DNA of 64,000 bases from positions 186,001-250,000 of the forward strand of contig NZ_ARQM01000010.1 of NCBI RefSeq assembly GCF_000385135.1, given 5' to 3'. This stretch comes from Promicromonospora sukumoe 327MFSha3.1 (GTDB lineage: Bacteria; Actinomycetota; Actinomycetes; Actinomycetales; Cellulomonadaceae). The position numbers were made by a program, and so were the translations under genes. The stretch's first letter is position 1. Every line of letters starts with the position of its first letter. The notes under the pieces were generated by a model. That model ran no database searches and was not told the DNA's origin. It saw only the letters and a program-made list of their open reading frames with translations. Below, piece by piece: positions 709 to 42,040 of the stretch.

Positions 709-908
709 CGGCTCAGTCCTCGATTCCTTTGGTCGGACTCAGCCTGCGCTCCGTTCCGGGCGCGTGCCTCGTTCCTCGCCCCGCACCCTGCACTGCGCTC
801 CGGCTCAGTCCTCGATTCCTTTGGTCGGACTCAGCCTGCGCTCCGTTCCGGGCGCGTGCCTCGTTCCTCGCCCCGCACCCTGCACTGCGCTCCGGCTCAG
901 TCCTCGAT
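709..908. repeat. 92-bp tandem repeat, two full copies plus a partial third
   Basis: Two identical 92-bp units occupy 709-800 and 801-892, followed by about 16 bases of a third. The partial third copy contains the last codons and stop (897-899) of the minus-strand methyltransferase gene, so the repeat appears to include a duplicated gene 3' end. On the opposite strand the unit reads TGAGCCGGAG, then a GCAGGGTG stretch and CGAGGAACGAGGCAC; a diverged relative follows rpmA at 5193-5275. No transcription signal is obvious in it. Confidence 0.9.
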
Positions 909-1490
909 GAGCGGGACGAACCGGTAGCCGCCGTGGTCGGTCGCGCGGGTGCGCCCGTCGGGCAGCCGCTCGATGAGCAGCAGCGTCGTTCGCACGGGGA
1001 TGACCATGCGCCCACCGATCCCGACCTGTTCCACCAGGGTGCGGGGGAGGGCGGCGGCCGCCGCCGAGACCAGGATCCGGTCCCAGCCGTTCTCCTGGGG
1101 CTGGCCGAGCACCCCGGGCTCGGTGTGCTGGAGCGTCGCCCAGCCCATTCCGGTGCGCGCCACGTTGGCGGCGCCCCAGTCGGCGAGCCGGCTGTCGCGC
1201 TCGACGCCGAGCACCCAGCCCTGCGGCCCGGTCAGGTAGGCGAGCAGCGCCGTCGTCCAGCCGGAGCCTGCGCCGACGTCGAGCACGCGCGCGCCGAGCG
1301 GCACACGGAGCAGGCGCAGCATCGCGGCCACGGTGCTGGGCTGCGATGACGTCTGGCCGCGCCCGATCGGCAGCGGCTGGTCCTGGCCCGCGAACGTCCG
1401 CTGCGAGCGGGGCAGGAAATCGCGGCGGGGTACGGCGCGCATCGCCCGGGCGATGTCGTCGTGCTCGGCGGCGGGCTCGGAAACCATCAC
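897..1490 (-). CDS. pcm: protein-L-isoaspartate O-methyltransferase family protein
   Basis: Predicted cytosolic SAM-dependent methyltransferase of 197 residues that would methylate L-isoaspartyl residues in aged proteins. The SAM-binding motif I is LDVGAGSGW (around residues 70-78), and the preceding GQTSSQPSTVA matches the conserved ISQP-type substrate region of the family. The length is normal for bacterial Pcm. The gene is divergent from the permease-fusion gene at 1605. The last residues (PLIED) and stop lie inside the partial copy of the 92-bp repeat, so the very C-terminus has been copied into, or supplied by, repeat DNA. An alternative start one codon downstream (second Met) is possible. 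Confidence 0.85.
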   Translation of the reverse strand: MMVSEPAAEHDDIARAMRAVPRRDFLPRSQRTFAGQDQPLPIGRGQTSSQPSTVAAMLRLLRVPLGARVLDVGAGSGWTTALLAYLTGPQGWVLGVERDSRLADWGAANVARTGMGWATLQHTEPGVLGQPQENGWDRILVSAAAAALPRTLVEQVGIGGRMVIPVRTTLLLIERLPDGRTRATDHGGYRFVPLIED

Positions 1491-1604
1491 GTATCACCTG
1501 AGCCCAGGGTAGGCACAGCCCGATCGAGGTCGCCAGGTGCCCCGGTCCGCGCCGGTGTCCCCGTAGACTGCGCCGGCCCGTGACCGTGCGTACCAGGAGA
1601 GGCC

Positions 1605-4316
1605 TTGGCCACCGAGACGTCCGTCCCACCGAAGCTGTCCGTAGCGGCCGTCACGATCGCGGCGCTCACCGCTGTCGCCTTCTGGTCGCTCAAACCGGTC
1701 TTCATCTCGATCATCGGCGACCGCGGCGACTTCGCCGAGGTGTACGTCGTGGCCGGGGCCATCTCGGTGCTCACGAGCCTGGTCGGCGCCCTGGTGCTGC
1801 GCCGCAAGAGCCTGGCGGTGCTGCGGGGCGGGCGGTCCAGCCTCTCCGGCGCCGGGTCGGCGGCGATCTCGGGGCTCTTCCTCGCGCTCTGGTACTACGG
1901 CTTCTACCGCGCCCTGTACGGCGCGCCCAAGGTGGACGCGACGATCATCGCCTTCACCTGGCCGCTCATCGCGGTGATCGCCATGCGCATCTTCTCCCCG
2001 GCGACGGCAGCCAAGCTCCGCTGGAACGAGTGGCTGATGGTGCTGGCCTCCTTCGTGGGGGCGGCCGCGATCGGCGTCTCGAACGTCGGGGCGGCGCAGT
2101 CCGGCGCCGGCGACAGCGGCGAGATCGTCTGGGCCTTCGTCGCGGCGGTCGGCAGCGGGCTCTACCTGCCCTTCGCGATCAACTCGACCCGGTCGTTCGA
2201 CCGCGTGGTGGACTCCCGGCCTATCGCAACCTTCTACGCGATCTCGGTGGCCAACGCCACGGCCCTGGTCGCGGTGCTCCTGGCCCTGTGGGCCACCGAC
2301 CACACCCTGCGCTTCTACGCCTTCGACGCCCAGGTGCTGCTGGTCTGCGCCCTGATCGGCATCGGTACGTACCTGGTCGCCGAGATCACCTGGACGTGGG
2401 CGTTCCAGGAGTACAAGTCCCTGACACTGTCCTCGCTCCCGTACTTCTCGCCCGCCGTCTCGGTCGTGCTGCTCTACCTGCTCTTCGACGAGCCGGTCCG
2501 CCCCATCGCCATCGTCGGCCTGGTCCTGATCCTCTTCTCCAACCTGACGCTGCACGCGCGCCACCGGTCCATGAACGCGCTGTCCCTGTCCCTGGTGGCC
2601 ACCGTGTACGTGGCGCTCGCCTCCCAGGTGCTGCCGCGGGACGTGCTCAGCTCCGTGCCGGAGATGGCGGCGGCGATCACCGGGCTGTTCGCGATCCTCG
2701 CCGGTTTCACGCTCGCGCAGGTGGCCAGCCGGCGTACGCAGGAGCTCGACGCGCGGGCGACCGTCGTGAGCCGAATGATCGCCACCGACGACTCGGCCGA
2801 CAAGGACGCCGCGGACGCGCTCCTGCAGGACCTCATCGAGCTGGAGTACGACTCGACCGCCGAGGGCAAGGAGAGTCGCGCGCTCCGCATCAAGCACGCC
2901 ATGGCCGGGGAGTCCGGAGTGCGCACCCCGGAGCAGGAGAGTGCCCTGGACGCGTTCAACGGCTGGCTCTCCATCCACCTCGACCGGCTCTCCCTGGGCG
3001 AGCGAGCCGCGCTGTGGCTCACCGGCCTGGGCTCCATCGTCTTCGTGCTGCTGCTGCGGGGCGACTCCCCGCTCGGCAACGCCGGCGCGATCGTCTTCGC
3101 GGGCGGCGCGTTCCTGGCGATGTTCGCGATCCGCGACTACGACCGCAACAACATCCACGGGTTCACCAGCCAGATCTGGCGGCTGGAGCAGGGCTTCCGC
3201 GAGATCGGCAAGAAGTACTACCTTCCCGCGGACATCCTCGAGTCAGGTGAGTTCACCGCCGCGCAGGTGCGCGACGGGATCCGGACGCGGGACGGTGACG
3301 GCCCCATCCGGGTGGTCGAGTCCCTTCCCGCCGGCCGCGGCTTCAACGTGTTCTACCTGGGCACCGCGACCCTCGTCATTCTCGCCGTCGTGCTCATGCC
3401 TACCGCGTTCAGCGGCAAGATCGGCACGGCCACCGCGTCCGCCCCGCGGCCCGGTGAGGTGCAGGCCGCTCCCGAGACCGAGCAGGCGACCGTCACCATC
3501 GCCGACCCGGGCTGGCCCGGGGCGAGCGTCACGGCCGAGATCCTGCAGGACGTGCTCGGCGACGCCGACGTCACGGTCCGGATCGAGGAGATGGACCACG
3601 TCGACGCCGTCGCCGGGATGGGCGCCGACGATCCTGCGGTCCAGGTCCATCCCGACCTGTGGCTGCAGAACCAGGGGGTGGCCGTCCGCGAGTGGGTCGC
3701 CGACGGGACCATCCGCCTGAGCGAGCACTCCTACACCGGCACGCAGGGCGTCTACGTGCTGGACGCCGCCGGCTCCGAGCGGGTGCTGACCGAGGCCGAG
3801 GACCTCTTTGATCCCGAGGTCGCCGCCCTGTTCGACAGCGACGGGGACGGCATCGGGGAGATGTGGATCGGCCCGCGCGGCTGGGCGTCGACCGAGAACT
3901 TGGCTGCCTGGCTGGACAGGCCAGGACACGAGGGGATCGAGGGTGAGTCCTACTCGGCGACGATCTTCAAGGCGCGGCTGGAGCAGGAGGCCGCGTCCGG
4001 GCGGCCGCTGCTCTTCTACGGGTACGAGCCGGACGGCATCCACGAGCAGTTCACGCTGCGCCGGCTCGCGTCGATCCCGTGGGCTGACGACCAGGGTGAC
4101 GAGCGCGTCGACGTGCACGTCGCCTGGGCCGCCACCCTGGCGGAGACGTCGCCCGTCGCGGCTCGGATCCTGCAGGACGTCGACCTCACCGACGACGACC
4201 TCAGCGCCTTCATCTCGGCTGTCGACCACGACGGGCTGGAGCCGGAGGAGGTCGCCGAGAAGTGGCTGGCCGACAACGGGGACCGGGTGGCCCGCTGGGG
4301 CGGATCGGACGACTGA
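1605..4316 (+). CDS. fusion protein: DMT/EamA-type permease plus glycine-betaine-type (OpuAC) binding domain
   Basis: A 903-residue membrane protein. Residues 1 to about 320 form two EamA-like halves with about ten hydrophobic spans. Two more spans follow (to about 385), then a charged helical segment (about 385-455), two spans (about 460-510), another soluble stretch, and a single span near 585-605. Residues about 625-900 resemble OpuAC substrate-binding proteins: IADPGWPGASV near the start, VHPDLWLQNQ, YTGTQGVYV, and the SDGDGIGEMWIGPRGW segment typical of quaternary-amine binders. I infer a secondary transporter with a tethered extracytoplasmic binding domain for a betaine-like solute; transport and substrate are unproven. 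The TTG start is chosen because AGGAGAGG lies directly upstream. I see no ABC ATPase nearby. It is an unusual domain combination. Confidence 0.75.
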   Translation: MATETSVPPKLSVAAVTIAALTAVAFWSLKPVFISIIGDRGDFAEVYVVAGAISVLTSLVGALVLRRKSLAVLRGGRSSLSGAGSAAISGLFLALWYYGFYRALYGAPKVDATIIAFTWPLIAVIAMRIFSPATAAKLRWNEWLMVLASFVGAAAIGVSNVGAAQSGAGDSGEIVWAFVAAVGSGLYLPFAINSTRSFDRVVDSRPIATFYAISVANATALVAVLLALWATDHTLRFYAFDAQVLLVCALIGIGTYLVAEITWTWAFQEYKSLTLSSLPYFSPAVSVVLLYLLFDEPVRPIAIVGLVLILFSNLTLHARHRSMNALSLSLVATVYVALASQVLPRDVLSSVPEMAAAITGLFAILAGFTLAQVASRRTQELDARATVVSRMIATDDSADKDAADALLQDLIELEYDSTAEGKESRALRIKHAMAGESGVRTPEQESALDAFNGWLSIHLDRLSLGERAALWLTGLGSIVFVLLLRGDSPLGNAGAIVFAGGAFLAMFAIRDYDRNNIHGFTSQIWRLEQGFREIGKKYYLPADILESGEFTAAQVRDGIRTRDGDGPIRVVESLPAGRGFNVFYLGTATLVILAVVLMPTAFSGKIGTATASAPRPGEVQAAPETEQATVTIADPGWPGASVTAEILQDVLGDADVTVRIEEMDHVDAVAGMGADDPAVQVHPDLWLQNQGVAVREWVADGTIRLSEHSYTGTQGVYVLDAAGSERVLTEAEDLFDPEVAALFDSDGDGIGEMWIGPRGWASTENLAAWLDRPGHEGIEGESYSATIFKARLEQEAASGRPLLFYGYEPDGIHEQFTLRRLASIPWADDQGDERVDVHVAWAATLAETSPVAARILQDVDLTDDDLSAFISAVDHDGLEPEEVAEKWLADNGDRVARWGGSDD

Positions 4317-13052: not shown

Positions 13053-13094
13053 AGCGACGCTCGCCCGGCCGTACGGCTCGGGGGAGACCAATCT

Positions 13095-13167
13095 GGGGCT
13101 GTGGCGCAGCTGGTAGCGCACCTGCATGGCATGCAGGGGGTCGGGGGTTCGAGTCCCCCCAGCTCCA
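13095..13167 (+). tRNA. tRNA-Ala (anticodon GGC), copy 1
   Basis: Full cloverleaf of 73 bases: acceptor GGGGCTG/CAGCTCC, D stem GCGC/GCGC, anticodon stem CCTGC/GCAGG with loop ATGGCAT (anticodon GGC), and T stem GGGGG/CCCCC with loop TTCGAGT. The discriminator base is A; CCA is not encoded. Identical to 15889-15961. Confidence 0.97.
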
Positions 13168-13176
13168 CCCAGAAGA

Positions 13177-15888: not shown

Positions 15889-15961
15889 GGGGCTGTGGCG
15901 CAGCTGGTAGCGCACCTGCATGGCATGCAGGGGGTCGGGGGTTCGAGTCCCCCCAGCTCCA
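15889..15961 (+). tRNA. tRNA-Ala (anticodon GGC), copy 2
   Basis: Base-for-base identical to the 73-base gene at 13095-13167, with the same cloverleaf and anticodon GGC; CCA is not encoded. Flanking sequences differ apart from the promoter hexamers. Confidence 0.97.
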
Positions 15962-15972
15962 CCGAACGAGAC

Positions 15973-37893: not shown

Positions 37894-38702
37894 CCACGTC
37901 GACCGTGTCGACCCCCACCCCGGCGAGGAACGGGTCACCACCCCGCCGCCGGGCGGGCAAGCACGCCACGCTGCTGACCCTGAACGCCGTCTCGATCGTG
38001 GGTGGCATCGGGGTCTGGTGGGTGCTGGCCCTGACCGGCCTCCAGCTCCCGACGCCGCCCGAGGTGCTGGCCAAGGGCATCGAGCTCGCCGCGAGCGGGA
38101 CCCTCGCCGAGGACCTGCTGGCCAGCCTCGGCCGCGTCCTGGCCGGGTTCCTGCTCGGCTCGGCCGCCGCGATCCCGGTCGGGTTCCTCATGGGCTGGTA
38201 CACACCCGCCCGGGGCCTGTTCGAGCCGTGGATCCAGTTCTTCCGCACCATCCCGCCGCTGGCGCTGCTGCCGCTCGTGCTGGTGCTGATGGGCATCGGC
38301 GAGCTGCCCAAGGTGTTCGTCATCTTCCTCGCGGCGTTCCTGGCCTGCGTCATCTCGACGTACCAGGGCGTCGTCAGCGTGGACCGGACGCTCATCAACG
38401 CGGCCCGCGTGCTCGGCGCCAAGGACGGCACGATCTTCCTGCGCGTGGTGGTGCCGGCGTCCTCGCCGTTCATCCTCGTGGGCATGCGCGTGGGCCTCGG
38501 CTCGGCGTGGGCCACCCTCGTGGCCGCCGAGCTGCTGGCCGCGCAGGCGGGCCTCGGGTTCCGCATGCAGCAGGCCCAGACCTACTACGACCTCGCGACG
38601 ATCTTCGTCTCCATCGTCGCCATCGGCGTGCTCGGCCTCGTGATGGACCGGCTGCTGCTGCTCGCGGAGACCCGGCTGACCGGATGGCAGGAACGACGAT
38701 GA
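37890..38702 (+). CDS. ABC importer permease, NitT/TauT (SsuC-like) type
   Basis: A 270-residue membrane protein with about six spans. The EAA-type loop is [27 protein letters not shown]. Family members import sulfonates, taurine, nitrate or pyrimidine-type molecules. It starts with a GTG overlapping the regulator's stop and ends overlapping the ATPase start, so all are translated as a unit. Confidence 0.9.
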
Positions 38703-39523
38703 GCACCGACACCCCCACCCTGACGGGCACCGCCAAGATCTCGGTGCGTCAGACCCGCAAGACGTTCGCCCTCAAGGACGAGGAGTTCGTCGCGCTCGAC
38801 GGCGTCGACCTCGACGTGGCCGACAACGAGTTCGTCACCGTCGTGGGCCCCTCGGGCTGCGGCAAGTCCACCCTGATGAACATCGTCGCGGGCCTGGAGA
38901 CGCCGACGTCGGGCGAGGTGCTGGTGGACGGCGCCGGCGTGACCGGCCCCGGCCCCGAGCGCGGCGTCATCTTCCAGCAGTACGCGCTGTTCCCGTGGCT
39001 CACGGTGCGCAAGAACGTCGAGTTCGGTCTCAAGGTCGCGGGCCTGCCCGCCGCCGAGCGGCGCGAGCGCGCCGAGCACTACGTGCGCCTGGTGGGCCTG
39101 GAGCAGTTCGCGGACGCACTGCCCAAGACGCTGTCGGGCGGCATGAAGCAGCGGTGCGCCATCGCCCGCGCCTACGCCGTCAACCCGTCGATCCTGCTGA
39201 TGGACGAGCCCTTCGGGGCGCTCGACGCCCTGACCCGCGTGCGGCTCCAGGAGCAGCTCCTGGACACGTGGAGCACCGAGAAGCGCACCGTCCTGTTCAT
39301 CACCCACGACGTGGACGAGGCCGTGTTCCTCGCCGGCCGCGTGGTGGTCATGGCCGCCCGGCCGGGCCGCATCCACGAGGTGGTCGACGTGAACCTGCCG
39401 TACCCGCGCACCGAGGAGGTGCGGCTCAGCCCCGAGTTCGCCGAGCTGCGCAACCGCGTGTGGCGCGCCGTGTACCACCAGACCCAGCCCCAGACCCAGC
39501 CCCAGACCCGGACCAAGAACTGA
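38699..39523 (+). CDS. ABC importer ATPase, NitT/TauT (SsuB-like) type
   Basis: A 274-residue ATPase. Walker A is GPSGCGKST, the Q-loop [12 protein letters not shown], the signature LSGGMKQR, Walker [13 protein letters not shown], and the H-loop FITHDVDEA. The C-terminal tail has a [10 protein letters not shown] repeat encoded by 12-bp units. It overlaps the permease gene by 4 bases. It energises import of the substrate that the sulfatase probably cleaves. Confidence 0.94.
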
Positions 39524-39531
39524 GGACCCCC

Positions 39532-40533
39532 ATGCGAATCTCCAGGAGAACTCTCGGCGCGGCCGCGGCCGGCCTCGCCCTCGTGCTGTCCCTCGGTGCC
39601 TGCTCCGCCGAGGCCGGCGCCGGCGGCGAGGACGGCACGATCGAGGTCAGCTTCGGCTACATCCCCGACTTCAACGGCACCAGCCTGCTGGCCATCGCCG
39701 AGGACCAGGGGCTGTGGGACGAGCACGGCATCGACGCCACGACGTCGTCGTTCACGAACGGCCCGCTGCAGATCCAGGCGCTCGGCACGGGCGACCTCGA
39801 CTTCGGGTACATCGGGCCCGGCGCCTTCTGGCTGCCCGCCTCCGGGCAGGCCAAGGTGGTCGCCCTGAACACGCTCGGCCGCGCCGACCGCGTGGTGGCG
39901 CAGCCCGGCATCGACTCCGTCGAGGACCTCAAGGGCAAGACCGTCGCCGTGCCGGAGGGCACCTCGGGCGACATGATCCTCACCCTCGCCCTGGCGGAGG
40001 CGGGCATGACCAAGGACGACGTCGAGCTGGTGCCCATGGAGCCGCCGGCCATCGTGGCCGCGCTCTCCTCCGGGCAGGTCGACGCCGCCGGCTTCTGGTA
40101 CCCGGCGCTCGCGACGGTCAAGAAGCAGGTGCCCGACCTCGTGGAGCTCGCCCAGAACACCGACTTCGAGGAGACCGTCGCGTTCCCGACGGCGTTCGTG
40201 GCCGGCAACGACGTCGTGGCCGACGACCCCGAGAAGGTCGACGCCGTGCTCAAGGTGCTGCGCGAGGCCATGGCCTACCGCACCGAGAACATGGACGAGG
40301 CGATCGCGCTCACCGCCGAGTTCAACGACCTCCCGGAGGCCGACGTCGAGGCGGACGCCGCGAACGTGCAGGTGCTCGACGCCGAAGAGATCGACGGGCT
40401 GACCCAGGACGGCACCACCGACACGTGGCTGACCGGCATGCAGGACTACTTCGTCGGGGCCGGGCAGCTCCCGGAGGCCGTGGACCCGGGCGAGTTCTAC
40501 CTGGGCGACCAGTTCGTCAAGGCGGGTGAGTGA
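39532..40533 (+). CDS. ABC importer substrate-binding lipoprotein, NitT/TauT (SsuA-like) type
   Basis: A 333-residue lipoprotein: signal peptide with lipobox SLGAC at about residue 24. The mature part has the family pattern GYIPDFNGTSLLAIAEDQGLW, GDLDFGYIGPGAFWLP and LKGKTVAVPEGTSGD. Relatives bind sulfonates or related organic anions. Since the operon ends in a sulfatase, a sulfate ester is a reasonable ligand; this is inference. Its stop lies inside the sulfatase start region. Confidence 0.88.
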   Translation: MRISRRTLGAAAAGLALVLSLGACSAEAGAGGEDGTIEVSFGYIPDFNGTSLLAIAEDQGLWDEHGIDATTSSFTNGPLQIQALGTGDLDFGYIGPGAFWLPASGQAKVVALNTLGRADRVVAQPGIDSVEDLKGKTVAVPEGTSGDMILTLALAEAGMTKDDVELVPMEPPAIVAALSSGQVDAAGFWYPALATVKKQVPDLVELAQNTDFEETVAFPTAFVAGNDVVADDPEKVDAVLKVLREAMAYRTENMDEAIALTAEFNDLPEADVEADAANVQVLDAEEIDGLTQDGTTDTWLTGMQDYFVGAGQLPEAVDPGEFYLGDQFVKAGE

Positions 40534-42040
40534 CGCGGTGGCAGCCAAGAACGTCCTGTTCCTGATGACCGACCAGCACCGGGCCGACACGCTGGGCGCC
40601 TACGGCAACCCGCTGGCGTCCACGCCGGTGCTGGACGGGCTCGCGGCGTCGGGCACGCGGTTCGACCGCTGGTACACGCCGACGGCGATCTGCACGCCGT
40701 CGCGCGCGAGCCTGCTCACCGGGCAGGCGCCGTTCCGGCACCAGGTGCTGGCCAACCACGAGCGCAACGTGGGCTACCAGGAGGACCTGGCCGAGGGGAC
40801 CTTCACCTTCGTGGAGGCGCTGCGGGAGCGCGGGTACAACACCGGCCTGGTCGGCAAGTGGCACGCGGGCACGGAGAAGAACGCGGCGTCGTTCGGGTTC
40901 GACGGGCCGGACCTGCCCGGCTGGCACAACCCGGTCGACAACCCGGACTACCTGGCCTACCTGGCGGAGCACGACCTGCCGCCGTACGAGATCAGCGACC
41001 GCGTGCGCGGCACGCTGCCCAACGGCGGCCCCGGCAACCTGCTCGCGGCGCGACTGCACCAGCCGGTCGAGGCCACGTTCGAGCACTACCTGGCCACGCG
41101 CACCATCGAGCTGCTGGAACGGTACGCGGACGACTTCCGGTCGGGGGAGCGGCCCTTCTTCCTGGAGCTGAGCTTCTTCGGCCCGCACCTGCCGTACATC
41201 GTGCCGGACGAGTACTTCGACATGTTCGACCCGGCCGACGTCGAGCTGCCCGCCTCCATCGCGGAGACGTTCGAGGGCAAGCCGCCCGTGCAGGCCAACT
41301 ACAGCGCGCACTGGACGTTCGACACCATGCCGATCGAGGTGACGCGCAAGCTCATCGCGGTCTACTGGGGCTACGTGACGCTCATCGACCAGCAGATCGG
41401 GCGCGTCATGGACGCGCTGGAGCGGCTGGGGCTCGTGGACGACACCGCGGTGTTCTTCACGTGCGACCACGGCGAGTTCACGGGCGCGCACCGGCTGCAC
41501 GACAAGGGTCCGGCGATGTACGAGGACATCTACCGCACGCCCGGCCTGCTGCGGGTACCGGGCGGCCCTGCGGGCCAGGTGCGCACCGAGTTCGTCAGCC
41601 TGCTGGACTGCACGGCCACGATCCTGGAGCTGGCCGGGATCGACCCGGCACCCGCGGTGGACTCGCGCAGCCTGCTGCCGCTGGCGGCCGGTGAGGACGT
41701 GGAGTGGCAGCAGGACATCGTGTGCGAGTTCCACGGCCACCACTTCCCCTACCCGCAGCGCATGCTGCGGGAGGACCGGTACAAGCTGGTGGTCAACCCG
41801 GACTCGGTCAACGAGCTCTATGACCTGCACACCGACCCGGACGAGCTGACCAACGCCTACGCCTACGCCGACCCGGGCCTGGCCGACGTGCGGCGCCGCA
41901 TGATGGGGCGGCTGTACCGGCTGCTCCGGGATCGTGGCGACAACTTCTACCACTGGATGACCACGATGTACGACGTCGGCGAGGTGGACCACGACCCGAC
42001 CCAGTCGGGCCTGGACGAGACGACGTACGCGGCGCGGTAG
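40526..42040 (+). CDS. cytoplasmic sulfatase (type I, formylglycine-dependent)
   Basis: A 504-residue sulfatase. The signature CTPSRASLLTG (near residue 56) holds the cysteine that must be oxidised to formylglycine; metal ligands are seen in LMTDQHRAD and CDHGEFTGAH. No signal peptide is present, so it acts in the cytoplasm on an imported sulfate ester. A formylglycine-generating enzyme must come from elsewhere. The GTG at 40526 overlaps the binding-protein gene by 8 bases; a GTG at 40538 is an alternative. The closest general resemblance is to aryl or choline sulfatases; the substrate is unknown, but a ROK regulator suggests a sulfated sugar. Confidence 0.92.
   Translation: MSDAVAAKNVLFLMTDQHRADTLGAYGNPLASTPVLDGLAASGTRFDRWYTPTAICTPSRASLLTGQAPFRHQVLANHERNVGYQEDLAEGTFTFVEALRERGYNTGLVGKWHAGTEKNAASFGFDGPDLPGWHNPVDNPDYLAYLAEHDLPPYEISDRVRGTLPNGGPGNLLAARLHQPVEATFEHYLATRTIELLERYADDFRSGERPFFLELSFFGPHLPYIVPDEYFDMFDPADVELPASIAETFEGKPPVQANYSAHWTFDTMPIEVTRKLIAVYWGYVTLIDQQIGRVMDALERLGLVDDTAVFFTCDHGEFTGAHRLHDKGPAMYEDIYRTPGLLRVPGGPAGQVRTEFVSLLDCTATILELAGIDPAPAVDSRSLLPLAAGEDVEWQQDIVCEFHGHHFPYPQRMLREDRYKLVVNPDSVNELYDLHTDPDELTNAYAYADPGLADVRRRMMGRLYRLLRDRGDNFYHWMTTMYDVGEVDHDPTQSGLDETTYAAR

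Follow-up and report, generated by a model that had tools for sequence, protein, structure and literature searches.

The window analysed here, a 64,000-nucleotide stretch of DNA from Promicromonospora sukumoe 327MFSha3.1, contains a gene (1605..4316, forward strand) that raises the question of why a DMT permease of the EamA type and an OpuAC substrate-binding domain should share one polypeptide of 903 residues, and of what such a protein would do. The open reading frame begins with a TTG codon, runs for 903 codons with no internal stops, and is preceded by AGGAGAGG (1595..1602, forward strand), a likely ribosome-binding site as judged by reading the sequence. The extent of the fusion, which comprises the permease, a middle region and the OpuAC domain, is supported by the frame itself, by Pfam and by full-length homologues. 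From sequence comparison we estimate at about 0.58 the probability that its product works as a secondary importer in which carrier and binding protein form one chain, and which depends on that binding protein to take up a betaine- or choline-type solute.

The OpuAC domain (PF04069; residues 628–889, 3486..4271, forward strand), delimited by Pfam and by matches to PDB sequences, is recognised in the whole protein at 100.2 bits (cut-off 21.2; E 1.9e-28). Searched on its own, this part scores 104 bits (E 1.3e-29) and covers profile positions 1–256 of 257, which removes the doubt that a C-terminal OpuAC match might be lacking. The permease (residues 1–318, 1605..2558, forward strand), delimited by Pfam, hydropathy and identity to homologues, matches EamA (PF00892) in two stretches, at 31.6 bits in the whole protein (cut-off 28.2; E 2.4e-07) and 42.8 bits on its own (E 8.1e-11). 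EamA and OpuAC are the sole Pfam matches of the fusion at E ≤ 1; neither BCCT (PF02028) nor an ABC domain is among them. A hydropathy scan (19-residue window, threshold 1.2) gave ten hydrophobic peaks within residues 11–316 and five further peaks within 325–598; a tether of extra spans is supported by the five species that carry the fusion. A preliminary description of this locus had placed a ten-span EamA-like permease in the first third of the protein and an OpuAC domain, tethered through extra spans, in the last third, and this layout is borne out in full. Ten-span DMT carriers usually have their N-terminus inside the cell. If this is also the case here, the fifteenth span, which precedes OpuAC, would bring the domain outside, and OpuAC is therefore predicted to be extracellular. 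The C-terminal tail of 305 residues is acidic, with 60 D+E versus 18 K+R.

Full-length fusions were also found in P. thailandica (86% identical), P. panici (84%), Microlunatus speluncae (60%) and a metagenome-assembled genome of Brevibacterium senegalense (53%), using a scan of genome contigs with short peptide patterns that recovers close relatives only. The gene is thus present in five species of three actinobacterial genera, among them the named strain P. thailandica DSM 26652, and is stop-free and full length in all five genomes. OpuAC scores 90–103 bits in the four other proteins, and EamA scores 26.4 (L004), 33.8 (L005), 27.7 (L006) and 31.4 bits (L007; E 9.3e-06 to 4.9e-08 overall). Both profiles in one unbroken frame in several species, as the preliminary description had anticipated, are accordingly seen in five species, with EamA over its cut-off in three of them (the window, L005 and L007). 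The same description had allowed that a sequencing or assembly error might have joined two genes. Such a joining error is refuted by the independent genomes with a full-length fusion, and purifying selection on both sides of the junctions together with an empty slot at this place in six congeners also argues against it, so that an artefact can for practical purposes be dismissed.

Indeed, all three parts of the fusion are under purifying selection. Among the three Promicromonospora copies the ratio of non-synonymous to synonymous substitution rates (dN/dS) is 0.094–0.115 for the EamA part, 0.113–0.175 for the middle region and 0.158–0.255 for OpuAC, which makes EamA the most conserved part, with a near tie with the middle region for one pair (0.115 versus 0.113). 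The three between-genera pairs that were computed gave 0.26–0.56 at a dS of 0.7–1.1, where the estimate is unsure. Identity to the other fusions follows the same order, at 92, 87, 71 and 66% for the EamA part and 77, 77, 49 and 41% for the OpuAC part.

In the chromosome of Promicromonospora the fusion lies between a PCMT-family gene (897..1490, reverse strand; PF01135, E 7.7e-42; present in 13 of 13 congeners) and rplU, the gene for ribosomal protein L21 (4536..4850, forward strand; PF00829, E 1.3e-29), which is followed by obgE and the gene for a ProB-type kinase. Across 13 Promicromonospora genomes this slot holds the fusion in three (G000, G009 and G011), a BCCT gene in four and neither in six. 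The gap between the PCMT gene and rplU measures about 0.25–0.30 kb in G001, G003, G005, G006, G007 and G010, and about 2.2–2.35 kb in G012, G004, G002 and G008 (loci L072–L075, in this order). The four long gaps resemble one another (83–92% over their main pieces) and not the fusion, for which the best tblastn match has an E of 0.016. Two of the four genes within them were scanned with Pfam and are BCCT genes (E 6.1e-163 and 4e-161); these two pass the NCBIfam cut-off for a BCCT subfamily and not that of the glycine betaine equivalog. When PF02028 was searched across whole genomes, all four had a BCCT at the coordinates of the slot. The slot BCCT is carried on the strand opposite to the fusion, and the two are therefore taken to have arrived separately. 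In G010, the PCMT gene is split over both ends of a short contig (C72; loci L068 and L069), as if misassembled or circularly cut.

A tree of the flanking genes (1,326 aligned bases, 12 of the 13 genomes) makes G011, with the fusion, the sister of G008, with the BCCT, at a support of 100, whereas G000 (fusion) falls among genomes with an empty slot and G009 (fusion) lies near other BCCT genomes with a support of just 44. Three-state parsimony requires four changes in the slot, a number equalled or undercut in 129 of 2000 label shuffles. Repeated turnover of the slot is therefore probable, and the site may serve for the exchange of compatible-solute carriers. Because a BCCT, from a betaine/choline family, and the fusion, with a binding domain of the betaine/choline type, alternate in one slot, this analysis suggests that the two may do a shared job.

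The sequence of the OpuAC domain is consistent with such a solute. Choline-binding and ProX models of NCBIfam match it, all far below their cut-offs, and the PDB sequences matched include 2reg, a putative choline/betaine-binding protein (E 1.7e-06), 2b4l, an OpuAC protein (E 0.00063), and 1r9l, which we take to be E. coli ProX (E 0.0008). In the alignment to 2reg, W637 (codon 3513..3515), W686 (3660..3662) and Y807 (4023..4025) of the fusion fall on W43, W90 and W205 of ChoX, and in the alignment to 1r9l, W760 (3882..3884) and Y807 fall on W140 and W188 of ProX (all codons on the forward strand). The ChoX numbers are the chain count of 2reg plus an offset of 27; this offset is assumed, as are the ligand-cage roles of ChoX W43, W90, Y119 and W205 and of ProX W140 and W188. 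On that assumption, the fusion has aromatic residues at three of the four ChoX cage positions (W637, W686 and Y807). All four residues, W637, W686, W760 and Y807, are invariant across the five fusions. The secondary transporter for a quaternary amine put forward in the preliminary description thus remains a conditional reading, although one favoured both by the BCCT in the slot of four congeners and by these aromatic positions.

A tree was built from 20 OpuAC domains (five fused, four plasmid-borne, ten others from the loci of the five fusion genomes and one from genome G828, with further OpuAC matches left out). The fused domains form one group with a support of 100/100, and they group in turn with the plasmid-borne proteins of Ruegeria, Paracoccus, Rhodobacteraceae M382 and Pseudomonas, at a weaker support of 81/85 under midpoint rooting; these four had been preselected for similarity to the query from the plasmid collection only. 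As the nearest stand-alone binding proteins fetched there, they are 28–32% identical, and they have the motifs VHPxxW and GDGxGExWxG in common with the fusions. In the Propionibacteriaceae genome G828, a stand-alone OpuAC protein of 344 residues is separated by 0.5 kb from an MFS gene of the RbtT/DalT type that has the same orientation (L053, 6000–8880); the MFS gene was considered as its partner and the proximity was taken as coincidence. A second, weak OpuAC match in the window (39652–40314, within the region 38500–42040) appears by eye to be an ordinary SsuA/TauA-type binding protein, whose gene stands in an ABC operon that a sulfatase-like gene follows.

These data can be accommodated in the following model. 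OpuAC, anchored outside the cell through the fifteenth span, would capture the solute and pass it in cis into the DMT permease, whose cavity would then be open to the outside. By alternating access, and powered by the membrane potential or an ion gradient, the permease would move the solute inward. Permease and OpuAC would be linked by the middle region, whose charged cytoplasmic loops might serve in oligomer formation or in regulation of the carrier. We infer the inward direction, the substrate class, the hand-over, the energy source and the role of the middle region.

The middle region (residues 319–598, 2559..3398, forward strand) is the least familiar part of the protein, and its limits follow from Pfam, a profile search of PDB sequences and hydropathy. 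Its five spans (325–343, 356–374, 468–486, 491–509 and 580–598) leave two charged loops, residues 375–467 (93 residues, 12 K+R) and 510–579 (70 residues, 11 K+R). Neither Pfam nor NCBIfam returned a family at a meaningful score, and a profile of the region found nothing beyond chance among PDB sequences; SLATT_1 of Pfam matches weakly in four of the five fusion members (best E 0.038). Foldseek, run on a model with a mean predicted local distance difference test score (pLDDT) of 57, ranked a Klebsiella bestrophin first (E 0.29, probability 0.89, template modelling (TM) score 0.35–0.38); further matches have TM scores mostly of about 0.3–0.4, and none reaches E 0.001. A bestrophin also recurs among the Foldseek matches of the full-length model. 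Bestrophins have a two-hairpin layout, and the spans of the region can likewise be drawn as two hairpins. However, bestrophin is not among the Pfam families listed for the five members at E ≤ 10, a setting at which the HMMER filters drop most matches above 0.1, and hhalign gave a probability of 0.1 for the region against E. coli YneE. An identification as a bestrophin, a weak fold likeness that sequence comparison does not support, is therefore at most tentative.

Loops of 93 and 70 residues in a region of no known family would also suit a sensor, or ‘transceptor’, in which OpuAC senses an external osmoprotectant, the middle region signals inside and the DMT part is a degenerate carrier. Set against this, no signalling domain was recognised by Pfam or NCBIfam, and conservation is highest in the EamA part, of which a stand-alone form also exists; both are to be expected if the carrier works. 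A sensory role is therefore considered unlikely, although it is the strongest of the competing explanations.

Several observations weigh against the importer proposed here. The alternation with BCCT is the best evidence for a shared job, yet it was recognised post hoc and concerns one slot. The slot tree contains weak nodes (44–60) and may have been disturbed by recombination. Moreover, the fusion genomes G000, G009 and G011 have one, three and two BCCTs elsewhere and none in the slot, and BCCTs number four to five in each slot-BCCT genome (slot copy included) and zero to two in the six empty genomes. Since the slot-BCCT genomes are rich in BCCTs, the landing of one in the slot is less remarkable. 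On the structural side, EamA falls just under its cut-off in two of the five fusions (L004 and L006), a profile of the permease found no DMT chain among PDB sequences at E ≤ 10, chance matches only being returned, and the models, each made from an alignment of five rows, are poor (mean pLDDT 43 for the whole fusion and 57 for the middle region). Among the Foldseek matches of the former are the SLC35-type DMT structures 6xbo (E 0.44) and 5oge (E 1.7). In the alignment to 2reg, the fourth cage residue of ChoX, Y119, is matched by G715 of the fusion.

The permease part might also be read as pointing to movement in the opposite direction. The named NCBIfam models that match it are YddG and a carboxylate/amino acid/amine model, all far below cut-off, and YddG, an exporter, is the best of them for the permease alone. 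An exporter of the YddG/EamA kind, in which the outer OpuAC would gate export or recapture solute, is nevertheless the least probable of the functional alternatives. The BCCT family functions mainly in uptake, and it is a BCCT that occupies the slot in four congeners. In the systems described in the available parts of two reports, OpuAC domains likewise serve uptake (PMC10030565, PMC9732360).

The nearest OpuAC relatives point partly elsewhere, since ABC genes adjoin three of the four fetched plasmid-borne proteins. The fusion might accordingly be two machines on one chain, with OpuAC feeding a separate ABC importer and the DMT part carrying something else; the genome does have other OpuAC proteins, one in a 532-residue frame that is long enough for a permease fusion. 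Permease and OpuAC have nevertheless remained joined in all five species, which span three genera, and it is a BCCT, not an ABC system, that otherwise fills the slot. Nor did the scanned neighbours include a recognised ABC gene (10 of 53 frames at the Microlunatus locus, L006, 10 of 34 at the Brevibacterium locus, L007, and four genes of the window, PCMT through ProB-type kinase). This arrangement therefore appears improbable, somewhat more so than a sensor and slightly less so than an exporter.

The ligand itself may differ from the one favoured here. All four plasmid-borne relatives have arginase, agmatinase, amidinotransferase, aminomethyltransferase or ETF/folate genes nearby, which by inference indicate catabolism of N-methyl or guanidino compounds; the ligand of the fusion may therefore be neither betaine nor choline. 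At L011 and L013, the OpuAC relatives stand in ABC operons with arginase-family and agmatinase genes, which hints at guanidino compounds as ligands of this branch of OpuAC. The Ruegeria protein (L011) is probably R. pomeroyi SPOA0231, because its tag is the sole one of the megaplasmid type among the four OpuAC tags listed. In the portions available, one study describes SPOA0231 as not binding dimethylsulfoniopropionate (PMC10030565) and in another a transcript table groups it with proline (PMC9038784). Methylated amines, amino acid derivatives and guanidino compounds are therefore all candidate ligands.

The surroundings in other genera fit a self-contained transporter, since they differ from one genus to the next. 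In Microlunatus speluncae the scanned neighbours are MFS, AlkZ-like, SDR, glyoxalase, kinase (APH) and carboxylesterase genes, and in Brevibacterium they are MDMPI, LamB/YcsF, lyase, SDF carrier and ECH genes; no partner gene common to the three genera was seen among the scanned neighbours. A tRNA-Ser gene lies about 110 bases upstream of the fusion in Microlunatus speluncae (L006, 7737–7822), and tRNA genes are a frequent place of integration of mobile elements. The window itself contains two tRNA-Ala genes, both with the anticodon GGC (13094–13171 and 15889–15963), on the same strand and 2.7 kb apart.

The architecture is rare. With the own genome included, the fusion was found in 3 of 59 relatives, 1 of 394 class genomes and 1 of 396 order genomes; the middle region alone was found in 1 of 396 phylum genomes, namely its own, and the EamA part alone, at E ≤ 1e-20, in 1 of 296 class genomes, again counting its own. 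Propionibacteriaceae gave one full fusion in 147 genomes, together with one OpuAC-only match, and Brevibacteriaceae one in 60, in each case with the known carrier included. The samples overlap, and in the class (394), order, phylum and Propionibacteriaceae counts only some first-look candidates were scored per genome, so that more remote relatives may have escaped notice. The EamA part has a stand-alone relative of 313 residues (53% identical; EamA 26.4 bits, just under cut-off) on a plasmid record of Tsukamurella tyrosinosolvens, where no OpuAC-like annotation appears in the 16.9 kb seen, many genes being labelled ‘hypothetical’. Searches of the viral contig collection with the complete alignment, and with its OpuAC and EamA parts taken singly, found no relative, and the plasmid collection gave part-matches only (25 records, none covering 80% of the query); a phage or plasmid origin of the fusion was rejected on these grounds.

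Among known systems, the BCCT carriers (PF02028) would resemble the fusion in being secondary carriers for betaine- or choline-type solutes, and they occupy the same slot in four congeners; they differ in family, in the lack of a binding domain and in their orientation within the slot. Stand-alone EamA/DMT carriers such as YddG have the same ten-span EamA-type permease, but carriers of the YddG/LicB type are about 300 residues long and lack a binding domain. LicB, as a choline importer, would show that import of choline is within the reach of a DMT protein, although we found no paper that supports choline import by it. The OpuAC part also has weak PDB matches to 3l6g and 7ahc, which are ABC importers of the OpuA/EgtU type. 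In importers of the OpuA/EgtU type (EgtUBC, PMC9732360, as described in the part available), an extracellular OpuAC domain is likewise tethered to a membrane domain, but this is an ABC permease driven by an ATPase. In the fusion the membrane domain is of the DMT type, and the neighbouring genes examined include none recognised as encoding an ATPase.

The general design, a secondary carrier that needs a binding protein, has precedents in TRAP, TTT and TAXI-GltS as far as the accessible text of the papers goes, so that the ‘new transport design’ of the preliminary description can be maintained for the pairing of DMT with OpuAC, and not for the principle. No published DMT–OpuAC fusion was found in the open-licence literature, to which the search was confined and which was seen in part; the text consulted in PMC4570203 and PMC9732360 likewise mentions none. 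TRAP and TTT systems use other membrane and binding protein families, mostly as separate subunits; the accessible text of one paper describes rare TRAP systems with the binding protein fused to the small membrane subunit (PMC8276074). The closest counterpart is TAXI-GltS, reported in 2025 for Bordetella BP0402/BP0403 and, in its fused form, mostly from Lachnospiraceae; before it, according to the sections of that report at hand, soluble binding proteins were known only with TRAP and TT carriers (PMC12344293). Its authors wonder there why so few kinds of secondary carrier make use of binding proteins, raise the possibility that an elevator mechanism is needed, and point out that further classes would test this proposal (PMC12344293). 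DMT-fold carriers, by contrast, are described in the available part of another paper as rocker-switch carriers (PMC12267056). It is close to an even call, in our judgement, whether the fusion represents a new class in which a rocker-switch DMT carrier with a tethered OpuAC provides high-affinity uptake of a betaine- or choline-type solute and alternates with BCCT at one slot. If so, the proposed restriction of binding proteins to elevator carriers would break, for which the fusion offers a single-gene test case, and Gram-positive bacteria would have a further route for the uptake of osmoprotectants or related solutes. Like TAXI-GltS as portrayed in those excerpts, the fusion combines a binding domain and a secondary carrier in one chain, is rare, and occurs in hosts without a conventional periplasm. 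In TAXI-GltS, however, the TAXI domain lies at the N-terminus of GltS, a proposed elevator carrier, and the solute is glutamate, whereas here it is the C-terminal side of a DMT carrier that bears OpuAC, and five additional spans separate the two. Overall, the comparison suggests that the DMT–OpuAC fusion may be a new variant, beside TAXI-GltS, of a young kind of design.

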